Source of the DNA: Effrenium voratum
Lineage: Eukaryota > Sar > Dinophyceae > Suessiales > Symbiodiniaceae
DNA: 64,000 nucleotides
Assembly (NCBI GenBank): GCA_963377175.1
Contig: CAUJNA010000169.1
Coordinates: 1,290,616 to 1,354,615, forward strand
Reading direction: 5' to 3'
Shown here: positions 4,201 through 64,000 of the stretch, one piece after another
Layout of the letters: each line of letters begins with the position of its first letter
How positions within the stretch are numbered: position 1 is the stretch's first letter
Translations under genes and position numbers: made by a program
Notes under the pieces: generated by a model
What the model saw: only the letters and a program-made list of their open reading frames with translations
Told to the model about the DNA's origin: nothing
The model's database searches: none

Positions 4201-7200
4201 TTCCTGAGTTATACTTTGAAAGACACCAGGATTTTTTTCAGCCGCCCCGCTCAGCGAGGTATGAGCCGTTCGAGCCAGTGGACGGCGGAGAAGGCGGTGA
4301 AACGGGACTTGTGACATGGGGACTAAAAACCAACGACTCTTTCCGCTTGGTTCTTTGAAAGGGTTCCTTCCTTCCCGGATTCCCCCGTTTTGGTGAAAGC
4401 GATGCCTTTCAGGAAACAACAGTGGGCTTCCTTTGGGTTGACTGGCGTGCAAGGGGACCGACCACATCAGGAGATGGAGCCCAACACACCTCCCTGAAAT
4501 GCCTCCAACCGCTAAAAGGACACGTACGGCACTTGTCGGTTTGGAACACAAAGCCATTCCCTTGGAAAAAGCAAATAAAAACGGGGAAACAATAAAAGAA
4601 GAAAAAAAGGCATGTAAGTTGATCCGGCAGGTATGGCCGGGATGCGCCCACCTTCGTCCATTTAGGGCCTTAGAATGGTGGGCCCTCAAGCATAAATAGG
4701 TTCCATGTATATATATATATATACACACCTGTGTGTGTGTGTGTGTGCATGTATATATATATATACACCCATAGATTGATACCCCCCACCAGGGTTCATG
4801 TCACGCACCTGCCAGGTCGAGCTTGCAATGTGCCCTTCCACAGCAAGGACGTGTGGCTCAGTGCTTCATTGGTTCCATCCCTACGCCAGTGCAAGTTGGA
4901 GTGTGCCAGTCGGAACTTCTGCAGCTTGCAGGGAATGAAGCAGCGGATTTGGGAGGTCGGGGATGGTTGCGAATCCGTCCGCACGAAATGAATCCACGGT
5001 TGAAACAGAACAAAGAGTTTGCTCCGCTATTTACAGGCCAAGCGAATCATTGGTTTCCGAATGGTGGTGCGAATGATTTTGTCCATCCACAGAAGGGGTG
5101 GGGTTTTTCGGGGTACCCTGCGTGGCAATCTACGGGAACTTGTTTCTGAGGGCACCTGCCATGCCTCTTCGGGGTTCTTGAACAGCAGAAACCATTGCAG
5201 CCGCCAATTTCTGTGGCAGGTTTCCCCCGAGTTTGAGACAGCCGAGGACACCAACCACTGGGAAGCCCATTGTAACCCTTAGTTGACTCCAGTGCAAGAG
5301 ACAACATGCAGGCTGTCTCGAATTGTTTGGAGCCCCCCTGCCATGAATGGGTTTCTTTGGGATTCCCATTGAAACAAGCCCAGGACGGGGCAGCAGCTCC
5401 AAAAACGAGGGTGCTGAACCTCCCAAAAAAAAGCCTCTTTCCCTGTTGTACAGTTGTCCCCAGCCTGGAGATATATATATATATACATGAGAATCGGGTT
5501 GCTGCGAACGAGACAACCAAACTTCGGACAAATTTGGACTCCCCGGACCACTCTTTTCGTTTGCCTTGGTTCCCGCCCTTCATAAAAGAACGGGTGTGTC
5601 TTTAGGAATCGGACCTCCCCAAAAAACAACATGGTGGGTTGGGGGAGCACCGAGCCTCAAAGAAGACACGCAAAAGTGCCCTCTGGTTCCCCCAAGGGAC
5701 CAACTTCCTTTGGTGCTCGATTTGGACGCATGGGAGCAACCCACCTGGTGAAGATCCTAGCCTTTGAAGAGAATCCTAATGGGGCCAAGCTTATCTTTCT
5801 AAGTCGGCCAGGAGGCTGATGTTTTCTCCTGGGCCTGTTTTTTCCTTTCGGGGGGGGGGGTCCTTTTGTGAGGTTCGGGTAAGATGTCCAGTCTGTGGCA
5901 GATGGTTCATTTAGGAGGGGCATAGGAAAACTGACCAAGTGTGAACTGCCAACTTGTGGGCACCAAAGTGAAGCCAAGAGGGTTCCATATCTTACTTTGT
6001 GGCAAACCCACGTCACTCTTGGCTGCGAACTTAATGTGGGAAGCCACTGAAAGTGAACACTAATCCCAACCTAAATCCACCTGAAAGTTCCCGGTGGTTT
6101 CTCAAAATAGTGGTCGCTAAAAATTGTGGGTGTCCTTTTTTCCCCCAAAAAAAACTAAAGGGGGATCCACTATCTAAAGAAACATACACCCACATACTCC
6201 TTGTATCAGCTTCCCCCCAAGTGGTGGTTAGAATTTGTACTTTGGCGGTCTTCCGGGGGTAGTTTCCCATTTCCCTTCAAATCCAAATCCACCCCCTCCC
6301 CCAAAGGGGGAACCACTCTTACGAATTCAACTACAGACCCTGAAAGTAGTTGGACAGAAATCCCCACCTAAATCCACCTCAGGCAGGAGACAAGTTGTTT
6401 TGGCTAGGTCCCCCAGGATCGTGCCCTTCTCTCCCCTGTTTTGTTTGTGGCCAGGGTTGCCCTACAGGAAAAAAGAAACGGTACCAGCTTATTCTAAGCT
6501 CAAACTACTGGAGGACCGAATTCGTTGGGAAGCCGCAAGCTTCGAAGCTTCGAAGCCTGAGGCAAGGGCCTGTCCTTCAACACCACGGGCTGCCAGCTTT
6601 GGAGCCATCCTCAGGGGATCCAGGCGACCACCTCTCGATCCACGGCGGGGATTTGCGTCGGTTTTTTGGGGTTTTTCCCCAGCCGACAGGAAGGGGTTGT
6701 TAGATTCTATGTTGCAATCCGCGTTTGCGATGCTTCTACACCACGCCCCCACCCAGTATCCCGCCAGAGCAGCTCGCCAGTGGATCCCGCCGAGTATCCC
6801 GCCAGAGCGGCTCGCCAGTGGATCCCGCCGAGTATCCCGCCAGAGCGGCTCGCCAGTGGATCCCGCCAGAGCTCGCCAGTGGATCCCGCCGAGTATCCCG
6901 CCAGAGCGGCTCGCCAGTGGATCCCGCCGATCCCGTCGCCAGTGGATCCCGCCGAGTATCCCGCCAGAGCGGCTCGCCAGTGCATCCCGCCGAGTATCCC
7001 GCCAGAGCGGCTCGCCAGTGGATCCCGCCGAGTATCCCGCCAGAGCGGCTCGCCAGTGGATCCCGCCGAGTATCCCGCCAGAGCGGCTCGCCAGTGGATC
7101 CCGCCGAGTATCCCGCCAGAGCGGCTCGCCAGTGGATCCCGCCGAGTATCCCCGCCAGAGCGGCTCGCCAGTGGATCCCGCCCCCGCAGTCGCCAGTGGA

Positions 7201-10200
7201 TCCCGCCGAGTATCCCGCCAGAGCGGCTCGCCAGTGGATCCCGCCGAGTATCCCGCCAGAGCGGCTCGCCAGTGGATCCCGCCGAGTATCCCGCCAGAGC
7301 GGCTCGCCAGTGGATCCCGCCGAGTATCCCGCCAGAGCGGCTCGCCAGTGGATCCCGCCGAGTATCCCGCCAGAGCGGCTCGCCCCGCCAGAGCGGCTCG
7401 CCAGTGGATCCCGCCGCCGAGTATCCCGCCAGAGCGGCTCGCCAGTGGATCCCGCCGAGTATCCCGCCAGAGCGGCTCGCCAGTGGATCCCGCCGAGTAT
7501 CCCGCCAGAGCGGCTCGCCAGTGCATCCCGCCGAGCATCCCGCCAGAGCGGCTCGCCAGTGGATCCCGCCGAGCTCGCCAGTGCATCCCGCCGAGTATCC
7601 CGCCAGAGCGGCTCGCCAGTGGATCCCGCCGAGTATCCCGCCAGAGCGGCTCGCCAGTGGATCCCGCTGAGTATCCCAGAGCATCCCGCCGAGTATCTTG
7701 CTGAGCATCCTTTGCCGGTGGCTCCTGCCGAGTATCCGGCCAGCATCGAGCCGGAGCGGCTCGCCAGTATCTGCCAGTGGATCCCTCCAGTATCCCGCCA
7801 GAGCAGCTCGCCAGTCTGGTTTTGCTAAATGTCCCGCCCGGCGCACAGTTGGGTTTACATTTCATGTTGGCGCCTTCGTGTTTTGAGTGCACCCTGAGGC
7901 TCGGAAAGGGTGATGCTTTTGTGTTCCTTTGGGTTGTGAATAAGCAACTTCGTTTAATCCCCCGTCGGGTTTCTTTTTGGAAGGGGCTTGGCTTTTGTTA
8001 ACGGAACCGATGTTTGAGTTCTCGAGATCGGCTCGCTGACAAGTGGCGTTTGACACACAGACAGGTGGATAAGGCTCTCAATGCAAAGCTTGTTGAGCAG
8101 TCATAGGCCCCAAGCCACTCGAAAACCATGCTTGAATTCAAACAACCGTGTTCACGGTCGTAGGCTCGTGAGTGTGGAGGGTGGGGATTGCTCGATGCGA
8201 AGATTTGTTTTCGTTGGCCGTCCCTTTTGCGCTTTTGCTCTTCTTGCGGGTTTGTTTTTGCTGTCACCTAACCCTTAAAGCTGTTTGTGTTTCTGTTGGG
8301 TTTTTTTGTTTGGTGCTTTGGCGCCTTGCCTGGGGCCCGAAACTGTTGGGAGGATGCAACTCCATTCGCACCGAGGCAGGACTCGAAGCTTCCGGACTTC
8401 GGGGGGTTGTTCCACGTTTTCAAGTTTCGTGGCAACCTGTTTGCTGTTACCCTGCAAGGGCTTCATGTTCTGGAAACAACCGCAGGGGTTGAGATTAAGA
8501 AGCTGATCCTTTTTTTCGCGCTCCGCCTTGGGGTAGACTTAGGGCCACTGGGTACGGCGCGCGCGAGAATATGGGGGTCTTTGCAGGTAACTTGGGCATA
8601 GCGCACAGAGGTTGGTTGCGGGTTTTGGGAACTCAGGCCCCAACAGAGAGGAGTTGGTTCAAAGGAAAAGCGCTTTGCACGACGGGGTTGAGTCGACTGC
8701 AACTTGAGTTCCTGCTTCTCGGAACCCGGAACACATGTGGCGGCACACGCTCGATCCCTGGAAGATGCCAAGCGCAACCTGACAGCTGTCCTGTGTTCCC
8801 CACGTTTGCTTTGGGTTTGCTCCAAAACCATCGACTTATCGGTTTTCGATTGGAGGTCCTTTGGCCTTCTCGGTCTCTGGTCATGCAGGGTGTTTGTTGT
8901 TCCTTTGTTTTTGAAACATGTACGTCTCAACACGTCGTCAACCACCAGAGGGCCGATGGCACTAATTATGTGTGTCACCATGTTATTCTTTGGAGGAGTC
9001 CGTTTGGGTGCCACCATACTGCGAACACCCACTCACATGTCCTCTTTGTGGACATGAATGCACAGACTACATGTTGGCAGAGGATCCTTCAGGCATTGTC
9101 TCTCAGATTCCGCTCTTGTGTTTGTTCCTTCCAGTCGATATGATATGATGCTTACGCCCTCCGGCGGCGAGTCTTCATGCCCTTGGACCATGCTTTCCTA
9201 TAGTAGAGAACCCTTCGCCAGTTTCCTTTTGTTTTTTTTCAGGCGGGAAACCACTGAAGTTTCTCACTAAAGGTGGCAACCAAAAAGAGATCTCTCTCTT
9301 TTTGTACGCTGCCAGACTTTAAAAATTTACCTTGTTAGCTGTTTGCCGTTCAGGTTTTCCTCAATCGTCCGTTTCAGCCAGCAAAAGCGAAGTCTTTGCA
9401 GGGGGGCCGAGTCGGATCACTCTGGCAGACTTTTGGATCACTCAATTCAACTGGGAGGGTGGCATGTAAGGATCCGGCAGCACCTGCCTTCGGCATATGC
9501 CCTTCACCCTGGTGAACGGTAGCAAGGATCGAGCATGTCGTGGACTCAGCAGCAGCGACATCGACCCCAGCTACTATGCGGCCCGGCGTCAAAGACGTGG
9601 ATTTCTCGCCGCCGTTTCTTCGCTCGGCTTTGATTTTTTGATGGGTCTGCCTATTTTATAGCGAGCTTGTTTGGGGGTGAAAACGAGCTTGGGGATCCCT
9701 TAAATCAGCTTGTGGACCTGCAGTCGATTTGCGTATGGGTGCAAGAAATAGGTTTAGTTCCGACTTTTTGGAACTTGGCGCGCTCGGGGACACTCCTTGG
9801 GCTCATCTACTTGGGGAAACGACCACACACCGTTTAATCTAGCAGAGTTCTATCTGGACAGAGTTCTATCCGGAAACGGACCGGCATGGGGGGGCCCAGT
9901 TGAAGGTAGAGGTCGACTATTCGGGTGACACAGTGACCTTTAGTGGCGAATTTCCAAAAACATGTCGGTCGGCACTTCTGAAACCATGGCTTGATTGGAT
10001 TCTCCTCCATTTGCTTAAGATGTTTACTTCATTTTTCCTTGTTGGTCTTAACTGGAATTCATCACTACTGGACATATTTTCTCATTTTTTCCTGGGGCCT
10101 TAACCAAATGGAAGTTCTGGTAAAGGACAAACGACCTAGCTTGTGTTTCCGGCCATGTCCGGACTCTCCAGACGAATCATGCAAGCAACGTACGCATCGT

Positions 10201-40600: not shown

Positions 40601-43600
40601 ACCGAATCGGGGACAGTTTGCTCGGGGTCATTCCAACTCATTCCCTGCCTATCGAACCAGCCAGGAGATTTGAGATTCGGCTGTCCAGGCTAGATTCAAG
40701 GTGGGCGGATGGGTTTCGGAGTGTCCCCAGCCCTTTCCGCGAAAACAACAAATAACTGTGGGTCAAACATAGGTAGGCATGTTAAGAAATGTTAACCCAG
40801 GCAATGGGAAGGACTACAACCTGCGGTCCATATATCCCACCCTGCGGTCCATATCCTGGTGGTTTCATTTTGACCCATACCCAAAATTCTAAGGGGTTTC
40901 TACATACCCCGAAATCACATACCCAACAAAAGTTGACTATATAGTGGTTATATAGGGATTATGCACTGTTGCCAAGGCGGCGTGCCCCATTTTCACGTGC
41001 ACCTGCGTTTCTTGGCACCGGATTTCCTTCTTCCCATTCCCCGAAGCCCCTGGCTGCCCCAAACCTCTCCCGAAATCACCCGGCATCTCTCTCCCAAATT
41101 CCCCGCCAACCCCCGGTTCCCCACCCAATCACCAAAAAGCAATCCCAAGACCCACAACCGCCCGCATACCCCAAAAAAGGAGCCCCAGAACAAAGGATGC
41201 ACCCAGAATCAACTATTTTGGGGTATGTATTTTTCTTCCCACGGTATGGTGTGTTTTGCCGGCCCGGGAGATATTGAAGAAATTTGGGGTATGTACTCTT
41301 CGGCCCCGGTGGGCTTTTGTCCGGGGTTCCTCACCACCGGTCTTAAAATGAAATCTGGAGCATCACCTGGGCGTTGTTCTGCCCACACTGCTCTTGTCAT
41401 CCCGCAAACCATCACGAGTAGTGCCTGGCATAGGCTAACAGTGACAGTGGCAAGCACACATTCCTACCCCGAGAAGGTGTTTCCATTCTTTTGGGGTGTG
41501 TGTTTTTACTCTTGGGAAAATCCCCCAGGAAAATCCAACATCCCAGGCGAGGTGACCTCGCTGGAGGGCTGTCGCGCCAAGTGCTCGGGCACCAAAGGCT
41601 GCCAGGCGACGGGGGCCGGGGGCCTTTGGATCAGCGGCGCTGGGATTTTCCATCCGCTTGGGAACCCCAAACTTTTTCTTCGGAGGTCCCCCAGCGTTGG
41701 CCTTTTACCTCGTTTTTGGGGGAGGGTTCCCCTACTAAATAAGCCACGGAAGAAGGGTACCCTTATTCTAGCCTCTTGACTGGAGAACCTAGTTGGTGCA
41801 TTTTCCCAAGGGATGTTAGGACTTTCACTTTTTGCCAACTCATGGGTTTGCCATCAAACCACTAAAAGTCAAACTTTTAGCAGGGGAGCAGAAAGCAACC
41901 GAGTTTTGATTGGTGGACATAGGTGGATGTCAGGGCAAACACCAGAAAGAATCATACCCAGAAATGTTTCTATGTGTTGTTTGGGGCGGGGACATGAATC
42001 GACAGAAATCTCCCCAGCTAAAGTATGTCCAGAGGGGAAAGGGCCCACTGTCTAAACTCTTACTCAGATGTATCTGCTTTTGTTTGTGTGTGTGTGTGTG
42101 CGGAGTGACAGAATGCCCTGTCACCACCATTTCGGTTTATCAGCAGGGGGACCAGGCGTCTTGCTGCTGACCTGGTCTAACAAAGCTAGGCAGCAAGACG
42201 GGATACCGGAGTTGGCCACTCCGGCGTACCTGCGACCGTTCCCACACCTGTTGTGCAATGTCCATTTGGCCCGTTGTTTTCTCGCTGTGTGTGCTTCATG
42301 TTGAATCTCGTAACGGTTTCGACACTAAAGGGAAACCGAGTGCATTGCGAGCAGAGCCTACACCTACTCGAGACTCACCAGTTGTACTCGAGACTCATCA
42401 GTTGTACTCGAAAGATTAGCACTCTCCATTTGGAGTTCAAGTGTGTACACCCCATTCGTGGGGAATCCTCGGGTGTACCCATTGTGTGACCCCGGGCCGG
42501 CTCTGTCGGAAAATTTGACCTCAACCTGCTTATCATAGAACAGCGGAATTTCACAGTTAACCAGGAACGAGGTCTCACTAAAGGGAAGACAGCGGTCAGA
42601 TCATAGTGACGTCTCACCTTTGCTTATTGCTTTATATTGGTTGAAGTGGTTGATATCTTGCCGTTGATTCCTTGCCGTTTCATGAATTTGCTTGTTGACT
42701 GATGCGTGTTTCTCAAGATGACAGCGTGACGATTGAGGGTCGATTTTGTGACCATGTCTCGACGTGATGATCGTGATAGATCCAGGACTCGGCGCAGACG
42801 TGATCGGAGTACTTCTCCTCAAGCTCGGAAAGCACACCGACGTGAACACAATGAACACCACGTCCCGGATGGCATGGATTGGAACAATCTGGTATCTTGG
42901 CAACACAATTCCGGCTACAATTCTGCCAACAACTTCCCGATGATGCCCACCAATTTTCAATCGACTCACAGTCCCACACAGCAATTTCAACATCCATCGA
43001 TCAACTACATGATGCCGATCCCTCCGGACCCCACGCCAACGAAGTTCATGCCGCCCGTGATGCCTCCACCGGTCACTACTCAGCAACCTACAGCGCCACC
43101 TGGACCTCCTGCGGCTCTACCGGTTCGCCCTCAGAAAGCCTGGCTTACACCTTCGCCTGACTGGACACCTGGAGATGGCATGTTTGATGTCAATCAGCTC
43201 TACAACTTTAGCTTGCCCATGACCGTTGCCAACACTCCGCATGGCAACCTGCGCGACATGTCAGGCATGGATATTCGTGACGTTCGCCTGGTTCAGGTCA
43301 TTCATGGGGGCCTCACCAACTGGCTCCTCCGACCGTTCGCTCACGGCAGATTCGTGACGTGGGAAGGCTTTCGCACCCGCACCGAGGCCTTACTTTGGAG
43401 TACCTGTTCCAAATTACTACGACGATCACAGTCGATCAATCTGCTCACCCTGGAAAAGGACCTTGCCAACTCGCTGGGTCTCAACATCGATGACTTCAAT
43501 CAGCGGATCAAGGTCCATGAGCATTTGGCCAACTCGGTACTTCAATTTCTTCAGCAACAACATGCTTCTCTCACGCCTTCTACACAGACAGATGACATGG

Positions 43601-46600
43601 TCAAGAAGTACAATGATCTCAACCGTGCGCATGAACTGCTCCAGGCTCAGTATTCAGCATCACTGCGCGCTTCGACCTCTCCCACGATGGCAAGCCAGAA
43701 AGATGATGCAGAGTTGGTTACACCTCCACCGGTCAACCACACGCAATCCTCTTCACCTGCCAGCTCCCTTCCTACCGCCAGTGCAGCGGCCCTTGATGGC
43801 AAGTCGTTTGATGGCGCGGTGCAACCCCGGATCATTCAGTCTCTTCACGGAGTGTCTTCACCGCCGTCCAAGCCGGCGGCGTCACAATTGCTCACCATGC
43901 ACAGCACGCCGGAAGAAGTTGTCAAGTACTACACATGGACCAGTGACCAGCCACGTCTTTATCTCAAGCAATCGCCCACAACCACGACTTTGACGTCACT
44001 AGTCAAATGGGCTAATCACCCGTCCCGACTCAACGGCAACAAGTCATTGGATTCCATGGCGACGCAGCTCCTTCAGGCGCGTCAACGCATGCCGAAAGGT
44101 GACGCACCCACTCTCGGGGCGATGGCGGCTTCGTGGGGACTGGAGCCTGGCTATCTCACCAAGCTCACTGAGAAGGCATTGAGTCACCTCATCGTGACCG
44201 CTCGACTACTCAGCTGATGAGCAGACATTTTGACGATCTTCGTTATCTTATGAGCCCGGAGCGGCACCCGTGTCACGGATGAGTCAAGGTTAAAACTTGT
44301 CCGTCATCTTTTTGCGTGACATCAGTTTGATCTTGTGCTTGGTTGTGCTTGCATTGCCTTGTACGTGATTTTCTGAGCAGCTTGTAACCATGTCGCCGCC
44401 TCATAGTCGATTTCATTGGTTGCAATTGCACCATGTTGGATGAGCTTCGCCGCTGTGGAATCTATGATGATGTTGCACAATGGCAGTCTCTCGACAATTT
44501 TCTACACTCGTTGACCATGTTCTCTACGTGCTGGCAATACTGCTTCCCTGGATTACCACCACCGTCGATACCAGCTGAGGAGTACGAATCAATCACACAG
44601 CTACCGTGGTTGGGCCTCATTCTGGAAGTATTAGTCGTGGTCCGGATTGCCCTTCAAATTCCGCATCACGCTATGTCACAATCTCAACACACTGTGGCCA
44701 ACAGGTATGAGCTTCATCGATGCCGGTGCACTGCCTATTTATTGATCAGTTTCCTACAACGTCTCATTTCCCAAGATCATGGCTACTTTCCGCCATTCTT
44801 TGAAGTCCTTCACTTCTACAAGGCATCTCTCTTGTGTGAAATCATGCACTCCACCTTTGCCGATACGCGGCATCTTCGCTCATTGCGGGCGCGATTTCCG
44901 GACCTCTATGACTTCATCCACGATCCAGGTCATCATCAACAACCGTGCGTTTACATCCGACTTTCCCCATGGCACACACCTTACTACGTTGGTGCGACTG
45001 ATCAGGATGTTCTACGACGTGAACACTCACGCAGTCGCAAATTTCTACAACTACTTCGGGGACGTCATGCATTCTTTGAACCCGCGCTGCACTACTAGAA
45101 GCGATCCAACACTTACTGGCTCTTTTGTGCTGTTCCAGTTGAGATCAAACTTCCCGTTTCCTCGGTTTGGGTTCAGGAAAGCAAATGGCAATACCTGCTA
45201 CGCCCGCATTTGAATGCACCCTGGGTACACAGGCTTTTGCGAAAGGTGGGCTTCCGGGAACACCTCGTTGATTTTCGACGTCATTCGTTGTCGTCTCCCA
45301 CTTCCCTCGGCTTGCACAAGCGGTTTCGACGACGACTACATCCGGATCTTCAACGGCAACTACGTCCCGACATGCTGGATGACATTCAGGCCCATTATTC
45401 CATTCTCTATCAACTGGGATCCAATACAGGTGCATCGTTCCAAGTCATGCGTGACCTTCTATCGGCGGCTTTCCCTCCTACTCAGCTTTACTACTTTCTG
45501 CGACTCTCCGTCTTTGTCAACGAGCCCTTCCGATCCAAGGCGCAGAAGCTTCTCGCCCAGGTGTTACGCAAACGACAGCTACAATCACCCACCACTTTGA
45601 CACAACTACTCCTACCACCTCTACATGTCCGGAATTGGAAAGCTCTACTTGGCACATGGTTACAAAGCTGGATTGCTTCTCATCGTGATTTGTTTCCTTC
45701 CCTTTTCCTCCCAAAGATCCGGGTGGTGGAGACTCGCAGCGCCACATTGGGCGACAAAATCTACAACTACCGCAAATGGCAGCGCAGATGGACTCCTGAA
45801 ACATCCTTTCCGTGTTGTTGTTTGGACATCGAAGATCACCATGTACACCGTGCACATGGACATGTTGTAATGGTTGATGAGTTCTCACGCATCAATGCAG
45901 ACATTGACATGGAAATCATGGCCGCATCAATGAAGGATCAGTACTTTGGTGATGTCGATTTGTTACATCAACGTTTCACCACACAGCTTCGCAAACTTGC
46001 TCGTCGTTGGCATGTGCATGGGTCCAGTCTTCTTGTTGACTTGCAGCCGGTTTTGACTCAGTTGATGAACAATCATCGTGCTAACCTTCAAGACCGTGTT
46101 CATTGGTCATCGACATCGTTGCAGCGCACCGTGGCTTCTTTGTCATCATGGGTGGTAATCCCCGCGGATCATTTTCCCTCACGTGCACATGTGATTTGTC
46201 CGTCTCTGTTTGCTATACTGATGCGGAAGACTTTTTGCTCGGGAGATGTCTTTTCACTTTGCCGTGAATCCGCAGCATCGTTTCGCTCTGAAGTGGTAAC
46301 TACGGTACCTTCCCTTCTACGTCAGCGATATACATGGGGACTTCGACTTCAAGCACCGTTGCCCACAGCTCGCATCCTTCCAAAGCCGACCAAGGACTGG
46401 CAGAAAGCACGACCCATCATCTCGTTCTTTCGCACGTGGGCAGCTCCCTTCCTCACGGTCTTCGGCGCCCTCATATTTGAACTCACCAAAGCTACTTTTC
46501 CTGACATTGCAGGTCAACTTTCAGTACAAGAACTTGTCCAGCAGCTGTGGGAGTCGCTGTCACAGGCAGATCCCGATGAGTACATCCACCTGGTGTCACA

Positions 46601-49600
46601 AGACCTGTCAGGCTTCTTCACGTCCATTCCTACGGAACGATTCCACCAGGCACTACAAGTGCTTCTTCATCGGTACGATCAAGTTGTTGGCCTTCGTAGA
46701 TCCTCTCAATGGTCAGTGTTCGAAGTAAAGTCTGACCATAGACGCCGCATGTTCAAAGGAAAATGGCGCCGTCAGACCAAGATCCCTAGAACTTTTCATG
46801 AACAAGATCTCCGACACCTTCTGGACTTTGTCATTGACAACAGTCACTTCGAGATCAACGGATATCTGTTCCGCCAAGAACGGGGAGTCGCTATGGGATC
46901 ACCAGCCGCACCGCCGCTCTGCAATTTGGTTGCCACGGTTGAAGATTTCTTCTGGCATCAGACAATGTGTTCTTTGCGTTTTCGCATGCCCGATATCGGT
47001 GTGATCTGGCATGAGCGCTACGTTGACAATCGTTTCATTCTGCTACGTGATTCTGCCCCTCACTCGCCCGTGCTCATGAATTTTCTTTCCCTTGAATTTT
47101 ATCGCCCACCAGTGATGCTTGAGGTTCAGCATGATGACAAAGTGCTGGGCTATCGATGTGATTCTTCTTCCAGGACTATTACACCACAGCTACCTGATCA
47201 TCCCTCCCAAATCAAAGGAATTCGGAGTGCTAATGACCAGATGTTTACTTATTCTTCCTGGTCTTCTCGCTCATGGCTCATCATACGTGGTGCACAACCT
47301 GCGGTGCAGCAACAGCAAGGACTTAACGCTCTTAAGCGCCTTTATGAGGACAAAGGCTTTGACCCCCGCCTTCTCCGTGACGTTCGGCGTCGGCTCGAGA
47401 CAAAATCTGCATGTGAGCTTGTCATGTTGTACCTTCTTGTGCCCCCTTGTGATTGGTGTTGATGTATTGCGTTGTGTCTGCATTTAGCTGGCTCAGAACC
47501 ATGGCGGAGTACACGGTCACCAGTCTCTTGCGCTCAGACGGATCAGTGCAAACTACGAGCCGCGTGACGTTGGAGCACCTTCCCAACTTCATCAACGGCA
47601 ATGAGATACAAATGTTCATCCGGACACACGGGCTAGCACATCAGCAAAGTGTACAATCCCACGGCCCATCCCGTGATTCTTTGGCACTTGGACCCGGAAG
47701 GTCACGTTCACGATCGCCCAGGGCACATCAGTCCCGGATACAGCTCACACCGGGCCCGCAGGGAAAGTCAGATGAGGAGGAGGACTGGGGTGAATGGAAA
47801 AGTGATGGGAGGCGTGCTCATGGTGATCAAAGGAGGCCACGATCGCCTTCGTTCCCTCCCGCTCGAATCAGTCCATCCGAGAACCGCATCGGGCTGATAC
47901 CTCTCTCAGTTCGACAGCATGTACCCGATTTTGGCAGTCATCGCTTCAAGCTGCGCACTGGTAGCCGGGTCGAGGAGATTGCCATCGTCCTGAATGATGT
48001 CCTTTACTACACCTTGCCCTCGATTGCCGCCTTAGAATTTCCTGATCCTGAACAGTGGAAGAAATCGTGGGAGACGGTCTACAGGAGCCTCATGCCGCAT
48101 CGCCGCAGCATCATCGAAGATGAGCAGCGGGTCAAGTCCATTTCGGAGTTTCCGTTTTCTCCACCACCTCATGGCGTCCCGGGACGCTGGACGCATCGAG
48201 TGGTTCAAGACATTTCTGACTACTTCCAGATCTCCCCGAAGTCGCTGCCACAGCAGCTCGTCATACAGCTTGGCATCTGCGAAGAGAAATGGCCATATAT
48301 CAGCAGGACTGCGCGGACGTATCACCACTTCTCCACGGACAAAAAGAACTTTGAGCCACGCCGATTGTTGCCGGACAAGCATCGCACTCAGTCACAGTCG
48401 ACATTTTTCTGGTCCCATAATACGAATATGCAGGCGGCCATGAACATCCTGCGTGATGAGGAGCTGATCAGACCCTCAAAGTGGCAAGAGCATCCTTCCC
48501 CCAACCGCGAGTGCTCAAACTGGAACCAAGTCTGGTTGCCTCCGATGGGATTTTACTGCAGGGGCAGCCTTCAATCTCAGGAAGCGGCAATCCAATCAGC
48601 CGCGCAGTTCGCGGGAATTCGCACGGATCGCCCCGTGTGCATTGGTGGGACTGCGCGTCTCCGGCAACAGCATGCCACTATACCCCGTGGCGGAGTGTAC
48701 GCTGACATTGCTGCTTCCCATTACTATGACTGCATTCACGCCAAAGATGGCAGGTGGAAACTGCGATCGTCAATTGCGGTGCCCAGCTACATGGGCATGT
48801 TCTGGTGAACGACCATGGCATTGCAGGCTCAGGGCCCCCCCTTTGTTTTTCATGGTGTCCACCATGACGCTCCTCTTCCGGAAAAAGCGCATAGGGTTGT
48901 CTGCGGCTTAAGTCTTGATGGAGTGTGTTGCATGCTTGTTGCGTTTCTTGCCGTTGCTGCCTTTTGAGTAGATTGCTGATTGCTTTGGCCCCTCTCTGTC
49001 GCATCTTCACCTGCATTGTGATGGACCACGGGGATCTTCTACGTGAATGTCGGCACATGTTGGTCGCCATTTCGTCACAAATCAGTCTTCTTCTGGCCGG
49101 ACTGCAGCGTCTTGAAGGCCAGCAGCGGCATCCACAGCCGCCACCACCGCCACCGGTTCCTGACGGCCACCTACCGCCGCTATGACGCCACCGCCTTTGC
49201 CGGCAACATCAGGCCGCCCGGACTACATGACTGCACCGGTCACTCTTGTGGCCACCTCAGACAACCGTACGGAGCACCCGGCTCACGTACGCACGGTGAG
49301 TGTCAGCACTTCCTGGGAGCACAGACGGAGGAGAAGGTCCAGACATCGGGAGCCTCATCGGCGCCGATCTCGCAGTCAACATCGACGGCTTCCTGGCCGA
49401 CCTGATGACGCGGTTCCCACGTCCCGCCGCCATGCCTACAATCCAAAGTACCCGCCGGCAGTCAAAGCCATGCCGGCGTGTCGACCATCTGGTCTGTCGT
49501 ATGACCGTTGACGGAACACCAGCGGCAAAAGGACCTCAGTATTTCGGCGCATGCATGTGTGCAAGCATCATGTCTTCACAGTTCCGCAGCCTTACTTGCT

Positions 49601-52600
49601 TGATTTGTACTTGCTGTGTGTTCATTTGCCATGCAGTTGTCAGTCGAGTTTGTGAACAACCTGGTGGCGGTACTCAATGTCCTTGCATCCCAAGTTGCGA
49701 CAGCGCTGGACACTCTGAACTTTGCCCTGATGTCTGAACGAAGCCACCCGTCAGATGCTAGAGTGTCTGCCAGGGCACCACGGAACTCCAGGCACGGCCT
49801 GCGCCCTCGCATCATCACAGAGCGCCTTTCGTCTGACCGATCCCGCTCTCCTACTCGACTTCGAGCCCGCCCTCTGGACACTTCCTCAACCTGGTATATA
49901 CCGGCCTTATCCCCGCCCCGTGCGGCACATCGAGATGCCGCCGACAACAATTCTGGTCGTCGGCCTGAATCGATGTTGGATCACTTGCCATCACCACGGC
50001 CACTTGCCCCCTCAGCCCCACACGGCGGACGAGTCCGTGCGTCCCCATCCAGATGCCTCGTCGTTCAGACCGTCTCCTACGGTGGTTCATGGACCTCGTG
50101 AACTTCTACAAGAATTCACCATCGCACTTCGCAATGCACACCGTGAACCTTTCACGGCATGGACACAGGGTGAGCTGGATGAGATGGTGCGACGGAAGAA
50201 AGACAAGGATTCCAGGCCCACATACAAAACCATCGCTCGGTTCCTTCTGAAGCCCATTGAGGAAGTCAAGCAGGCATGGAAGGTCTATCAGCAACTTGAG
50301 GCCCGCGGGTAGGAACCCGGTCATCAAATGCAGCAGCGACCACGGGAGGACTAAATGGTCGGCCGAGGCGGTGTATTTGGCTAGTGTTGCAGGTTGCTTT
50401 CACTTGAGTGCCATTGTATCAGGGTAATTTTGCATGCTGTTGTGGGTGTTGCCGCTTACGTGAATTGCATTCATGACTGAGTTGCTCAAAACATGTCGGA
50501 ACAAGTCGTACAGACGTACATTACTTGGACCCATGGAGCGCAGCCGACGTGGTTACAGTTTCACGGACCTGGAGCCCTGCTGGACAGACCCATTCGGCAG
50601 ACTACGTCGCCTCCGCCCCCGCCAAGTTTCCCACTGCTTCTGCCACCCCCGCCTCCTCCACCACCACCACCACCGGTGATTCTACACCCGCAGTTTATGC
50701 CCTCAGTACGGAGCCCCTCGATCTCAGCTCCTCGTGGACAATCATGCCCTGCTACATCGAAATCGCAGCGCACACGCCGCTCGGTCCACAGCACTGACCA
50801 TTCCCGTGATGAAGAGCTACACAGTCCAGGGCGTTCATTCAAACGATCTCGGACAGCATCCGCTTCAGCACCGAGGCGATCTCGGCGGCCGTTTACCGTG
50901 TTTCCCTCCAAACGAGCTGGCCGTCAATCGCTGTCCCCATCGGCAAATTGCAAGCATTACTGTCATGCCTTCCTGCACAATGGGCGGAAATGTCTTTCCC
51001 CTTGTGTTCGTAGACGACCAGGACATTATCATTGCAGGTGTGCACGGCATCAATGGCGATGAAGCTTAGGGGCCGTATATTACAAACCTCGCTGCTGTGT
51101 CTCACCTTGAGTTTGAAAAGTTGCCTTGCATTCCGTCAGCTGAGCACGGTTGTCATGGCATGTGTGTTTTAACCGCTGATTTTCGCTTGCTTGAAGCGGC
51201 CGCGCGATAGCTTGTCTTGCCGCTATGAACCCTCACTATTTCGAGTACCAGATCGACAGAGGAGTGGAATGGATTAGAATCTACTCACCGGGCACGTGGC
51301 GACCCGTTCCTGATGATGCTCCAGTGCTCGCACCGACCTACGCTTCTACGTATCGGGAGTGGCGCAAGTCATATCGCTTCCAAGTGTACTGGTCCGAAGA
51401 CAGCACCGGAGGAACAACAACGGATCCCATTGTCACGCCTAGTTCGTATGTGTCCTACCACGTGTGGGAGTACCGAGACTGGCAAACACGAGGGTATCAA
51501 CGACTTGGAGCTCCTGTACCAGCCATTGGTCTCGCGATGCTCGTGAATGCAGACGACAATTCCTCGGCGGACTCATCGGTTCCGGATGGGGCATGGCGTG
51601 AACCGTCACCACCACCATTCTATGATCCTTGGAACGAGTCGGGGTGATACTGGAGCAACATGTCGGATAAATTGACACGGTAGTGCTTGCTTTGCATGCG
51701 ATTCCATGTTGGGTTGTCTTGCTTGTTGTTGTGTGTCCCGCCTTCAGCTGTTTGCCGCTCTCATTTGACCCTGAGCGGTTTGCCTGGTTGATATGTTCAA
51801 TTGTACAATGTATGGCGCAGCACGTTGGGTCCTACCTCGCTACTTTGACTACGACATCGTCAAGTGCCCCGCGAATACGAGAGTGGAATGGATTCGGATC
51901 TATGTTCCCGGTCCGTGGCATCCAGTCGCCGAGAACACCTTGGGACCAGCCCCGGATGACACAACCACCTATCGGGAATGGCGTAAGGTTTTCCACTTCG
52001 AGGTGTATTGGCCGAGGGATAGCACAGGCGGCACCAATACAGGTGCTGTTTCGCAGCCGGTGTCTTATGCATCCTTCTATACTTGGTATTATAGAGACTG
52101 GGTCACCAGGGGATACCAACGGCTGGGTCGCCCACATCCTAGCATTGCGCGGCCAGTTTTCGCTTCGGGCGCACCGGACCTCATGTACGCTGGTTTGACC
52201 TCTTCATCGGCATCCTCCAACTCGGATGGTGGCTGATGCTCGTTTTCGCAATCCTGGGGAGTCTGTTCAGTTCAATTAAATGCGGGAGATTGACTTCGAT
52301 TTCGGAGCCGTGCATTGCTGCAAAAGTGATTTCTTGCACTGCGGCAGTTGTGTTTCTTTCAGCAATTGTTGTCTGAAGCCGTACGCATATCAAGTTGTCT
52401 TTCCGGGTTTGCGGTGTCATGGCATGGCTAGAATGGTGTCCGGATCCTCAACAACCAAATGCCCAGTGGGTCAAGATCTTTCATCCGGGATCATGGACTC
52501 CACATGAAGAACATGATGCTCCACCTCCTCCGCACACGTATCGAGAGTGGAAGGAGTTCTATGATCACAGCCCGCACCAAGACGGTGGACAGCTCAATGT

Positions 52601-55600
52601 CACCAAGTGGTACAAAAGAGACTGGGCCACAGAGGGCTATCGGAGAGTCGCCGCCCCTCAAGCAGGTCATGACTTTGATTCTATGTCTTTTCCTGATCAA
52701 CACAGCGTGGCCACGCAATCCACACCATTGAGTATGTCACCGCAGTTGTTGGACGCGATCCTTAGATCCTCGGATGCGGCGGATTTCTCTACCGAAGAGC
52801 TCACTCGCCTCCAAGAAGGGATTTCTCAGCAGCTGACGACTCGTGCGCATCACGCTTCCCAACTTCATCAACCTGTACGTGCATCACGGGGAGTTGCACC
52901 ACCAGAGACGGTGGGGATCTCTGAACCATACCGGCCTGTTAACTCCTCCGACAGCTGCAAAGCCAAGGCGAAACCTATCTTCGAGCTAAATGAGGACTAG
53001 ATGCACGCGAGTGGGGTAGCGGACAAAATAAGGGTGGTTTTGACGCTTGCGTGACCTTGCTTGGTTGTTGCTTGTACATGGTTGTGCATCGTGCATGTTC
53101 CTTTATCAGCTGGATCGGAGCCCGCGATACGCTTTGCCTCTCACTTCGACATGACATCGAGGATTCGAAGCAGCGCCCATGGCTCGAATACTCGGTCTGG
53201 CAGGATCAGGAGTGGGTGCGGATCTACACTCCAGGACAGACTCAGCTATGGCAACCCGGTGAGACCGTACCTGATCTACCAGACAACTCTTTTCGGGAGT
53301 GGAAGCGGGAAACTGATCCCAGTGGTGGGTTTGGTGAACACGGTCAGGCCTGGACGATTCGCGACTGGCAGCATCAAGGATACCAACGCATTCTGTCTCG
53401 AAGGGAGTCCTTCACTACACATCATGCCCGAGATCCAGCACTTGGAAATGTGCGGAATTCCGATGCAATTCCAGTTGAGGAGACGTTCACCTATGCCACT
53501 CCGCTTTCTCATGGTGATCGCTCGACTGCTGCACAACTCACTTCAGACCTCTATGGCGACACTCGTAATGCTCAACGTGGTGACTTTTCGTTCCCGTCTT
53601 CTGAGCGGTTAAGGGCTGTTTCTCGTTCCCCTCGCCGCGGTGGAATTTTTGGTCAACGATAGGGACACGGAGTTGAGCATGTGATCTTCCTTCGGAAAAA
53701 GTGACTCCTCGCCCCTCATTGAGGGGCGTGTGTGTGCGGAGTGACAGAATGCCCTGTCACCACCATTTCGGTTTATCAGCAGGGGGACCAGGCGTCTTGC
53801 TGCTGACCTGGTCTAACAAAGCTAGGCAGCAAGACGGGATACCGGAGTTGGCCACTCCGGCGTACCTGCGACCGTTCCCACACCTGTTGTGCAATGTCCA
53901 TTTGGCCCGTTGTTTTCTCGCTGTGTGTGCTTCATGTTGAATCTCGTAACGGTTTCGACACTAAAGGGAAACCGAGTGCATTGCGAGCAGAGCCTACACC
54001 TACTCGAGACTCACCAGTTGTACTCGAGACTCATCAGTTGTACTCGAAAGATTAGCACTCTCCATTTGGAGTTCAAGTGTGTCTGTGTCGGTTTTGTTGA
54101 GGTGTGGTCCCCGTTTCACCATGTTCGAAAGGGAAACCAAAAGGAAACCCACAACCCACTTGACTTGACACGTCCCATGTAGTAGCATGGAATGTACCCC
54201 CTGAATGTCGTTAGCTAGCTGAGTGGCATCCTGGCATTTTCGGTTGGAATATCATGTCCCCCATGCGAATCAACATAGTTGTTCCACCATTTTGACCTTC
54301 CTGAAAAGAAACCAAGAACTCTGGAAATCCCACCAAGGGTGGGTGGGGGTGTTTGGCCCTCTTCGAGATTCCTGGCAGCGCTCCCGCATTAGAAAGCCTT
54401 CCAGCTTAGTTCCCTTTCCCCCCTGTACCACCAAAAACCCCAAAAAGGTTGGCCTTTTTTGGGGGGGCCAAGACACCTCAAAACCCCCAAAAAAAAAAAC
54501 AATCCTAGTGTCCCCCTTCCCCTGCAATTGAACTTCGGCCCCGAGAAAAGCCCGAGAAAATTTTGTCCCCCGGCTCGCCCCGAAGTTCCATCGATCCCAT
54601 CGACGGCGACGCGAGTCTCGGCTCGAGGGCCTGGAGCTTACGGCCAGCCACTGCCACGTGTGGCTCCGCGCCGCCGGCATCGGCGCCACGGTGCCGCAGC
54701 CGGGCTCCCTCTGCCGCTCGTGGCACGAGGGTTTTTTGGCTTTCACGGCGGTGTTTTTTTGACACGGCGCTCGAAAAAGACGCGCAAAGGTCAAATTGGA
54801 GACGCCCCGGTTTTTTTTTTTTGGGCCCAGATTTGGGCCAAGTGTTGAGAGATGTTGAGAGTGAGTCCAGTTGGTGTTAACCAAAGAAATGAAAGGCCGA
54901 CAGGACCCCTTTTGAGGGATTCCCATTCGAACACGCTTGATTTTGGTCCACCCCTAGGGGATCTCTGTTGACTTTAATCGAAGTGATTGTGTGTCTTATC
55001 AACACATGTATGGTTAGTAACCAGTTATGAACCTACATTGGCGTTTGGACTCTAAAATATTTGCGCAGTTTACAGGCAGCATGTTCAACATCCTGAAAGA
55101 GGGAACATGTTGAGAGGGGCAGGTTCAACTCGGATATTCATGGTGGGTGGCGATGCAGCGTAGCACCTGAAGGATTCCTGGCCCCCCTTTAGTCTTTGGG
55201 TCGACTCACCGCCTTCCTGTTACGCGGATCACTGTGCTGGGAAAAGCTTGAGCTATGCCATAGTCCTTAAAATTATCATGGATTGTTGCATCGAAATTGC
55301 CCGGAAGAAGGATCCCTAGAAGGCAGGGCGAGAAGTACCGCTGGAATCTTCGGGGCTTCAACTGCTCAGGTTTGCCAACATTTTAGCCGCGACATGTTCG
55401 TCGATTTTCGGGTTTTGTTTCATTGCTGCCCATTTGGGGGAAACAGTCCCTTGAACACTGGCACATGCTCAGGTTTGACCGGTTGGTACGGGACGCAGCA
55501 TTGGCTTCAATTGTTGGTTTAGGCCTAGGTCTTACACACAACCTGGATCTCCAGGTTGTTCAGTTGAACTGTGGTTTATATTGGGCGGAAAACACCCTAT

Positions 55601-63285: not shown

Positions 63286-63908
63286 AACACAGAAACACAG
63301 AAACACGGAAAACAAAAAGACAGGAAGCAAGCAAGCAAGCAAGCAAGCAAGCAAACAAAAAATACAATAACTAAACACGCACGCACGCACGCACGCCAAC
63401 CAGCCAGCCAGCCCGAAAACAAACACGGAAGCAGGCAAGCAACTCAAAGCAGCAAAGCAGCAAACAAGCAATCAGATACTCAAACAAGCAGACAGGCAGA
63501 CAGACGGACAGACAGCCAGAGGCAGAGACAGAGGCAGAAGCAGACAGAGACAGATAGATAGGTTAGGTTAGGTTAGGTTCGGTTAGGTTAGTCAGATAGA
63601 TAGATAGATAGATAGAGAGATCGAGAGATAGAGAGAGGGACCCAGAGAACCAGATAGAGACAGATTGAGACAGTTTCCCACAACATTGGCGAGGTTGATC
63701 CAGCAAGCAGGCAAGCAAGCAGGCAAGAAAGCAGGCAAGCAGGCAAGCAAGCAGGCACGCAAGCAAGCAACCAGCCCGCCAGCCAAGCAACCACCCAACC
63801 AGCCAAGCAAGCAAGCAAGCAAGCAACCAATCAAGTCAGTCAGTCTGGCAGCCAGGCAAACAGTCAATCAGCCAGTCAGGCAGTCAGTCAATCAATCAAA
63901 CAGCTAAG

Positions 63909-63984
<76 letters not shown>

Positions 63985-64000
63985 CAAACAAGCAAACAAG
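63060..64000. repeat. Compound tetranucleotide tract
   Basis: In order: loose AAAC/AACT tracts, (GAAA)n at 63241-63284, (GCAA)n near 63327-63356, (GCAC)n near 63379, (GACA) variants, (GGTTA)n at 63561-63590, (GATA)n near 63593-63616, (GCAA)/(GCAG) mixtures to about 63850 and (ATCA)n to the end. It continues past the window. Frames here are rich in Lys/Gln/Thr or Leu/Ala/Cys and are not genes. Confidence 0.95.

Follow-up and report, generated by a model that had tools for sequence, protein, structure and literature searches.

A probable giant Penelope-like retrotransposon with ten open reading frames in the dinoflagellate Effrenium voratum

The stretch of DNA analysed here (the window) comprises 64 kb of contig CAUJNA010000169.1 of the dinoflagellate Effrenium voratum and belongs to a genome assembly of 1.156 Gb in 3699 contigs, which was used for the copy searches. 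It holds a probable giant Penelope-like retrotransposon, an element of 11,991 bp (42092-54082) that lies between two identical 355-bp direct repeats and whose open reading frames (ORFs) are concentrated on one strand, (+). An earlier note on this DNA, made from the letters alone, had described an element of about 12 kb with perfect 355-bp direct repeats, in agreement with our coordinates (Table 1), and had counted at least seven ORFs besides the first two. The multi-ORF form stands, and comparison of six copies corrects the count to ten ORFs in all, eight of which follow the reverse transcriptase (RT) ORF. The window copy is defective in ORF2, which an in-frame TAG (45096-45098) divides in two, and in ORF4 and ORF5, which are broken by deletions of 13 bp and 47 bp relative to three other copies.

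With the RT ORF as query, the best 60 of 1886 first-look candidates were scored and were found to be copies at 94-100% identity. An uninterrupted frame of 1006-1100 amino acids, by the frame lengths that the tool reported, with a stop-free matched part, was present in 37 of these 60, and a further four had frames longer than 1100 amino acids in which assembly gaps may be included. At one locus, L026 (G000:C7:271158-273407), the RT-holding frame was reported as 5984 amino acids and possibly runs through an assembly gap. The last ORF was used as a query in the same way, with the best 150 of 1921 candidates scored, and a match to it lay downstream on the same strand in at least 37 of the 60 RT copies, the window included; the distance from RT to last ORF was 8.4-9.5 kb in 35 copies, 7.7 kb in one and 15.3 kb in one. 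Six full or nearly full copies, the window plus C79, C1890, C2724, C48 and C3400, were compared along their length, and end regions were added from five others (C691, C3644, C73, C733 and C3597). Identity among the six long copies is 86-99%, and all are collinear, with ten ORFs each in a common order, so that the genome search for copies of the same ORF order, proposed in the earlier note, did find them.

A frame was counted as open when it ran on from its start and reached the shared stop to within 60 bp. Among the six long copies, ORF1 was open in four (C3400 is interrupted by an assembly gap in this region), ORF2 in five, ORF3 in three, ORF4 in five, ORF5 in four, ORF6 in five, ORF7 in all six (the frame of C2724 shifts near its end), ORF8 in three, ORF9 in four and ORF10 in all six. 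Ratios of nonsynonymous to synonymous substitution (dN/dS) were obtained by comparing C1890, C3400 and C48 with C79, which served as the codon reference. The coding frames of the ten ORFs gave values of 0.06-0.38, with a single value of 0.54 (ORF8 versus C48), and the non-coding frames gave values near or above 1, save for ORF7 frame 2 (0.42-0.72), one ORF3 frame (0.78-1.24) and one ORF9 frame (0.74-1.03); in ORF7 one pair barely discriminates between frames (0.38 versus 0.42). The frame with low dN/dS was read as the ORF frame, with an offset from the start in ORF3 and ORF9 (small deletion in C79) and in ORF4 and ORF5 (start one base late). Each of the ten ORFs thus looks to be under purifying selection. 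Since other contigs carry the collinear module again, bounded by the same ends, and since each ORF has low dN/dS, the family is more than chance; it is real, recently mobile and large.

Table 1. Features of the element in the window (pLTR, pseudo-long terminal repeat; IFD, insertion-in-fingers domain; RS, arginine/serine; C/H, cysteine/histidine; aa, amino acids)
Feature	Position	Strand	Remarks
Left pLTR	42092..42446	+	355 bp; first letters GTGTGTGTGCGGAG, last letters AAGTGTGT
Junction inside left pLTR	42447..42480	+	ACACCCC...GGGTGTACCC, inverted-repeat like
ORF1	42754..44217	+	487 aa; RS-rich N-terminus; dN/dS 0.09-0.12
ORF2	44433..47462	+	GIY-YIG-like segment, CxC linker and putative Penelope-type RT; dN/dS 0.06-0.07
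GIY-YIG-like nuclease segment of ORF2	44946..45215	+	VYI...YYVG...R...E...LN; contains the window TAG
CxC motif of ORF2 linker	45813..45821	+	C202 and C204 of the 750-aa RT ORF
RT core of ORF2	46164..47400	+	DKG-like 'ADHFP' 46164-46178, motif A, IFD-size insertion, motif B, motif C 'RYVDNR' 47016-47033, thumb; 3' limit approximate
ORF3	47501..48808	+	435 aa; dN/dS 0.23-0.26
ORF4	49021..49511	+	167 aa in copy C79; broken frame in window; dN/dS 0.11-0.17
ORF5	49631..50312	+	242 aa in copy C79; broken frame in window; dN/dS 0.12-0.14
ORF6	50493..51062	+	189 aa; proline/RS-rich, C/H-rich C-terminus; dN/dS 0.10-0.20
ORF7	51225..51647	+	140 aa; first of four paralogs; dN/dS 0.16-0.38
ORF8	51793..52236	+	147 aa; paralog; dN/dS 0.09-0.30, 0.54 vs C48 (region disrupted there)
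ORF9	52419..53000	+	193 aa; paralog; dN/dS 0.23-0.31
ORF10	53078..53662	+	Paralog; 194 aa in window from upstream ATG, 170 aa from ATG ~53151 in C79; dN/dS 0.26-0.34
Hairpin CGCCCCTCATTGAGGGGCG	53710..53728	+	3' end of internal region
Right pLTR	53728..54082	+	Same sequence as left pLTR

Elsewhere in the window, a GC-rich tandem array of about 0.9 kb with 38/114-bp units occupies 6748-7677 and is open in several frames on both strands, and the large ORFs listed there are repeat artefacts. A (TCAA)n microsatellite at 63884-63999 reaches the window end.

In eight copies with both ends, the left and right pLTRs differed by no substitution in four and by one in three (C79 has a 19-bp gap in addition); the pair of C3597 differed by 15 substitutions and 32 gap columns. 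With 0-1 substitution in seven of eight pairs, the insertions appear as recent as had been proposed for the window copy. Between copies, the pLTRs of the window and C1890 are only ~82% alike. The junctions CTCGCCCCTCATTGAGGGGC, which leads into the right pLTR, and ACACCCCATTCGTGGGGAATCCTCGGGTGTACCC, which follows the left pLTR, were each identical in all ten copies covering the respective site. The right-side junction is predicted to form a strong hairpin (fold z -2.93 versus shuffles), and the predicted fold of the left-side junction was not more stable than those of shuffled sequences (z -0.32). In six of eight copies, one or both 40-nt flanks hold 10-20 GT dinucleotides, a density to be compared with random 40-mers of the window (n=5000), 0.56% of which hold nine or more; GT repeats also adjoin C48 (left) and C3400 (right; a short repeat). 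An insertion bias toward microsatellite-type, GT-rich sites is mostly seen, from eight sites only.

A profile search with the ORF2 family returned, among the best 8000 candidates by shared words, its own relatives and beyond them only four proteins, P0044-P0047 (E 1.3e-7 to 5.7e-5). These carry a C-terminal C..C...YIG.T nuclease together with YVDD, and look like canonical Penelope-like proteins. In hhalign the RT part matched the four together at 98.8% (E 1.4e-16) and singly at 94.6-97.6%, compared with 0.0-43.9% for eight control loci of the same genome that match Pfam RVT_1. The effective control consists of the four real RTs among them (L001, L003, L006 and L007, with an RT motif in the frame used), the best of which reached 43.9%. 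The phage-RT family phrog_1423 of PHROGs was matched by three of 15 family members (best E 0.00064). Motifs A and B are 86-96 amino acids apart in 13 of the 15 members (two not measurable), versus 58 in two of the four canonical proteins (the other two not measurable). By its length only, the insertion between them is of IFD size and would sit where this domain is expected; an IFD is known from N-terminal endonuclease-bearing (EN+) Penelope-like elements and from telomerase. The profile evidence supports an ORF2 RT of Penelope type, as the earlier note had put forward, in that the RT matches Penelope-like proteins best among those compared.

The GIY-YIG-like segment, the linker and the RT follow each other in one frame in the homolog P0005 and in C79, C1890, C2724, C48 and C3400, five of the six long copies. 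The same order is found in P0012, with a disturbed stretch in the RT, and is common to distant relatives (22-33% identity) where these are covered, the nuclease being covered in 10 of 15 alignment rows. In eight nuclease segments, the residues Y, Y-x-G, T, R, E and L-N are invariant (8/8), a pattern typical of GIY-YIG enzymes. Both cysteines of the CxC linker are invariant columns in an 11-row alignment. A C..C pair directly before YIG occurs in all four canonical proteins, versus none of the eight family segments, two of which have a C-x-C-like pair elsewhere. A PDB profile search with the nuclease segment gave no GIY-YIG match. The position of a nuclease N-terminal to the RT is supported insofar as the GIY-YIG call holds; the proposed fusion of the two stands for their order and for the single frame of other copies, and fails for the window frame with its TAG. 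No hammerhead ribozyme match was found at permissive thresholds in the window element or five further loci, and other matches in the ribozyme scan were chance-like and below the cut-offs of their own families.

The near-identical, fixed-end terminal direct repeats and the position of ORF1 before the RT ORF could also suggest a long terminal repeat (LTR) retrotransposon or a DIRS-like element with an unusual RT. The RT profile matches Penelope-like proteins, however, the N-terminal GIY-YIG residues and the GT-microsatellite-like ends speak against such an origin, and the scanned ORFs gave no match to an integrase, a protease, an RNase H or a recombinase. We give this explanation almost no credence.

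The proteins other than ORF2 were compared with Pfam, PHROGs and NCBIfam, and no function could be assigned to ORF1, ORF3 or ORF6-ORF10 (ORF4 and ORF5 were outside these scans). ORF1 had been called gag-like; with no Pfam match and a single NCBIfam match at E 0.077, the name is unsupported. No function was found for the ORF3 family in Pfam and PDB, and a likeness of the ORF3 C-terminus to ADP-ribosyltransferases was dropped as unsupported. A search with ORF3 returned 47 proteins, five of which (P0003, P0009, P0010, P0017 and P0018) were also found with the RT query. ORF7-ORF10 are paralogous and share the domain W..I..PG..W.P...REW...W..RDW..GY.R.

It is conceivable that the element is a virus-like retroelement, an endogenised or semi-autonomous virus in which a Penelope-type RT is accompanied by structural and host-interaction genes of its own. 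Ten conserved ORFs of low dN/dS, nine of them without recognised cellular function, would fit this, as would the terminal redundancy, the four small paralogous proteins, the RS/proline-rich ORFs and the C/H-rich ORF6. Against it, Pfam, PHROGs and NCBIfam revealed no capsid, envelope, protease or movement protein among the scanned ORFs, and no relatives of ORF2 were confirmed in IMG/VR contigs, whether these were scanned with the element family or with canonical elements. We regard this origin as improbable.

The genome also holds a sister family (L059/L060), which has an RT 28% identical to that of the element and an ORF1 homolog upstream of its GIY-YIG-RT ORF; ORF1 aligned to the upstream ORF of L059 with a score of 207 versus 41 +/- 6 for shuffles (tblastn E 2.7e-17). 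ORF3-ORF10 gave no tblastn match at E 0.01 to L059, including 1.5 kb of gap-free sequence after its RT, and the second sister copy meets an assembly gap. Because an ORF1 homolog is present in L059 and ORF3-ORF10 matches are not, the two-ORF core (ORF1 plus nuclease-RT) is probably ancestral and ORF3-ORF10 are probably later gains. The same comparison could be taken to suggest a composite, in which a compact Penelope-like element (ORF1-ORF2) sits within, or has been fused to, another mobile unit or a captured host gene cluster (ORF3-ORF10), since the cargo is probably a later addition. In the compared copies, however, the cargo is collinear and lies inside the same pLTRs, and the whole unit recurs, with the last ORF following the RT in at least 37 of 60 copies. 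Moreover, the linkage of ORF2 to ORF3 is kept in a divergent subfamily of the giant element, where ORF3 lies directly after the RT at 77% identity over 255 amino acids. A composite is therefore very improbable in our view. L059/L060 and L061 (the latter with gaps) are further families with an N-terminal GIY-YIG-like segment and an RT, in frames of 909-951 amino acids; L059 also reads YVDN.

The spacers between the ORFs are 38-215 nt long and contain 33% T, versus 24% in the ORFs. When the 300 most T-rich 60-nt windows were located, 82% were centred in spacers (5' leader included), whose share of the element is 14%. The scores of the top T-rich YAG in each spacer averaged 8.7, a mean reached by one of 2000 resamples of ORF sequence, and by 58 of 3000 host-flank resamples from the same strand and 6 of 3000 from the other. 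The exact 21-mer of the spliced leader occurs 251 times in the genome versus 0 for the reversed control, which marks the host as a dinoflagellate; on contig C722 (G000), at ~109-123 kb, it forms a dense array with copies often ~120-140 bp apart, presumably the host spliced-leader gene cluster. No spliced-leader relic was found in the window (15-mer, at most two mismatches). The T-rich, YAG-bearing spacers would fit trans-splice acceptors, and spliced-leader processing of the element RNA is plausible; that several spacer AGs are not conserved across all copies weighs against such acceptors. Separate promoters or reinitiation are possible as an alternative route of expression.

Taken together, we consider it highly probable that the element is a giant Penelope-like retrotransposon of Naiad/Chlamys-type architecture that grew from a two-ORF core to ten ORFs in a dinoflagellate. 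In such an element, the pLTR would drive one long sense RNA, which the host spliced leader could split into separate mRNAs at the T-rich, YAG-bearing spacers. The full-length RNA would be bound by ORF2, which would nick a GT/CA microsatellite. The terminal GUGUGU of the RNA might then pair with the CA strand, with reverse transcription beginning there, next to the conserved ACACCCC junction, and the opposite GTGTGTG end could be joined via the same microhomology to give a new pLTR-internal-pLTR copy. Because selection on them is seen across element copies, ORF1 and ORF3-ORF10 most likely serve the element itself, perhaps in ribonucleoprotein or particle formation, in RNA binding by the C/H-rich ORF6, or in interaction with the host. 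Copies whose ORFs are broken may be mobilised in trans.

Several observations weigh against this reading. Pfam GIY-YIG had no match in the window protein and matched one of eight family segments weakly (E 0.036), and a GIY-to-GIY comparison in hhalign was weak as well (2.5%). Pfam RVT_1 matched two of ten members of the family alignment and not the window protein, the best Pfam match of which was SnoaL_3 at E 0.0016, below the cut-off. Motif C ends in D-N (YVDN) in all 14 members covering it, versus D-D in the four canonical proteins. A DKG motif upstream of the RT is a feature of Penelope-like elements; the region aligns, yet the family reads D-H instead of D-K-G. There is no strongly GT-rich flank at two of the eight sites, the window (5 left, 8 right) and C733 (8, 4), and no empty site was found in the genome for two tested insertions, the flanks of which are single-copy. 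On the side of expression, the spacer test is weak versus same-strand host DNA (58/3000), and among the best 40 of 357 candidates for leader-joined retrocopies of ORF10 none reached the leader past its last two bases. Polycistronic transcription in dinoflagellates "now seems limited", in the wording of one review (PMC5029490). Finally, none of the six long copies has all ten frames open, with 6-9 open per copy. This slightly lowers our confidence, both in the Naiad/Chlamys-type reading and in a bolder one, by which the element is a polycistronic, virus-sized retrotransposon whose ten genes are expressed by spliced-leader trans-splicing from one retrotransposing RNA, with YVDN throughout its RT clade, in a Penelope-derived lineage on the way toward or from a virus-like life. 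We consider the latter unlikely.

Penelope-like elements and telomerase RTs descend from a common ancestor, and the elements were for a long time considered compact (PMC6431247). The element is probably a strongly enlarged variant of the N-terminal-nuclease group, with eight unassigned ORFs added, four of them paralogous. Where known relatives usually carry one or two genes, it carries ten, nine of them without recognised function. A nuclease-bearing form with ten apparently selected genes, in many near-identical dinoflagellate copies, would widen the cargo of this class beyond rotifer telomeres and would add an RT clade whose active site reads YVDN. A role of the eight dark cargo proteins in retrotransposition is now testable, as is the use of spliced-leader splicing by a retroelement as an operon system. 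It is also interesting to speculate that the element may explain part of the unclassified repeats and 'dark' genes that dinoflagellate genomes are reported to contain.

In the literature searched, no dinoflagellate was described as having such an element, and the word 'Penelope' is absent from the main text of the dinoflagellate genome papers PMC11453091 and PMC8045281. Terminons were the only giant Penelope-like elements found described. These are telomeric elements of bdelloid rotifers with many accessory ORFs (PMC6431247), and the element resembles them in its giant form and its accessory ORFs. Terminons are endonuclease-deficient and telomere-attached, with hammerhead and telomeric-repeat 3' ends and cargo such as a DEDDy exonuclease, a GDSL lipase and Rep (PMC6431247). 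The element differs in that none of these ends or cargo genes, nor the hammerhead, was seen in it, and in that a nuclease-like segment is present. With canonical C-terminal EN+ Penelope/Poseidon elements (P0044-P0047 and PAc of Anolis) it shares the RT core, a GIY-YIG-like nuclease and, in PAc, pLTRs. Reverse transcription of the canonical PAc starts at an internal AC-rich stem-loop (PMC11167929), and the insertion end of the element adjoins its ACACCCC junction. Unlike these canonical elements, it has its nuclease-like segment at the opposite end of the protein, gives no hammerhead match and has GT-rich rather than AT-rich targets, along with terminal homology to the target and many ORFs. From LTR retrotransposons it differs in giving no integrase, protease or RNase H match in the scanned ORFs. 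The closest likeness is to Naiad and Chlamys elements, which have one main ORF and are a few kb long, and in which Craig et al. in 2021 reportedly described an N-terminal GIY-YIG before the RT, a CxC linker, a fingers insertion and a microsatellite bias. The element departs from them in its ten ORFs, 11.6-kb unit, YVDN motif C and dinoflagellate host, and in pLTRs that are equal in length in six of eight copies. It resembles both in the GIY-YIG-like segment before the RT, the CxC linker, the insertion between motifs A and B, the pLTRs, the microsatellite-type sites and the lack of a hammerhead match, and it resembles Chlamys in particular in having no C..C pair directly before YIG in any of eight segments.

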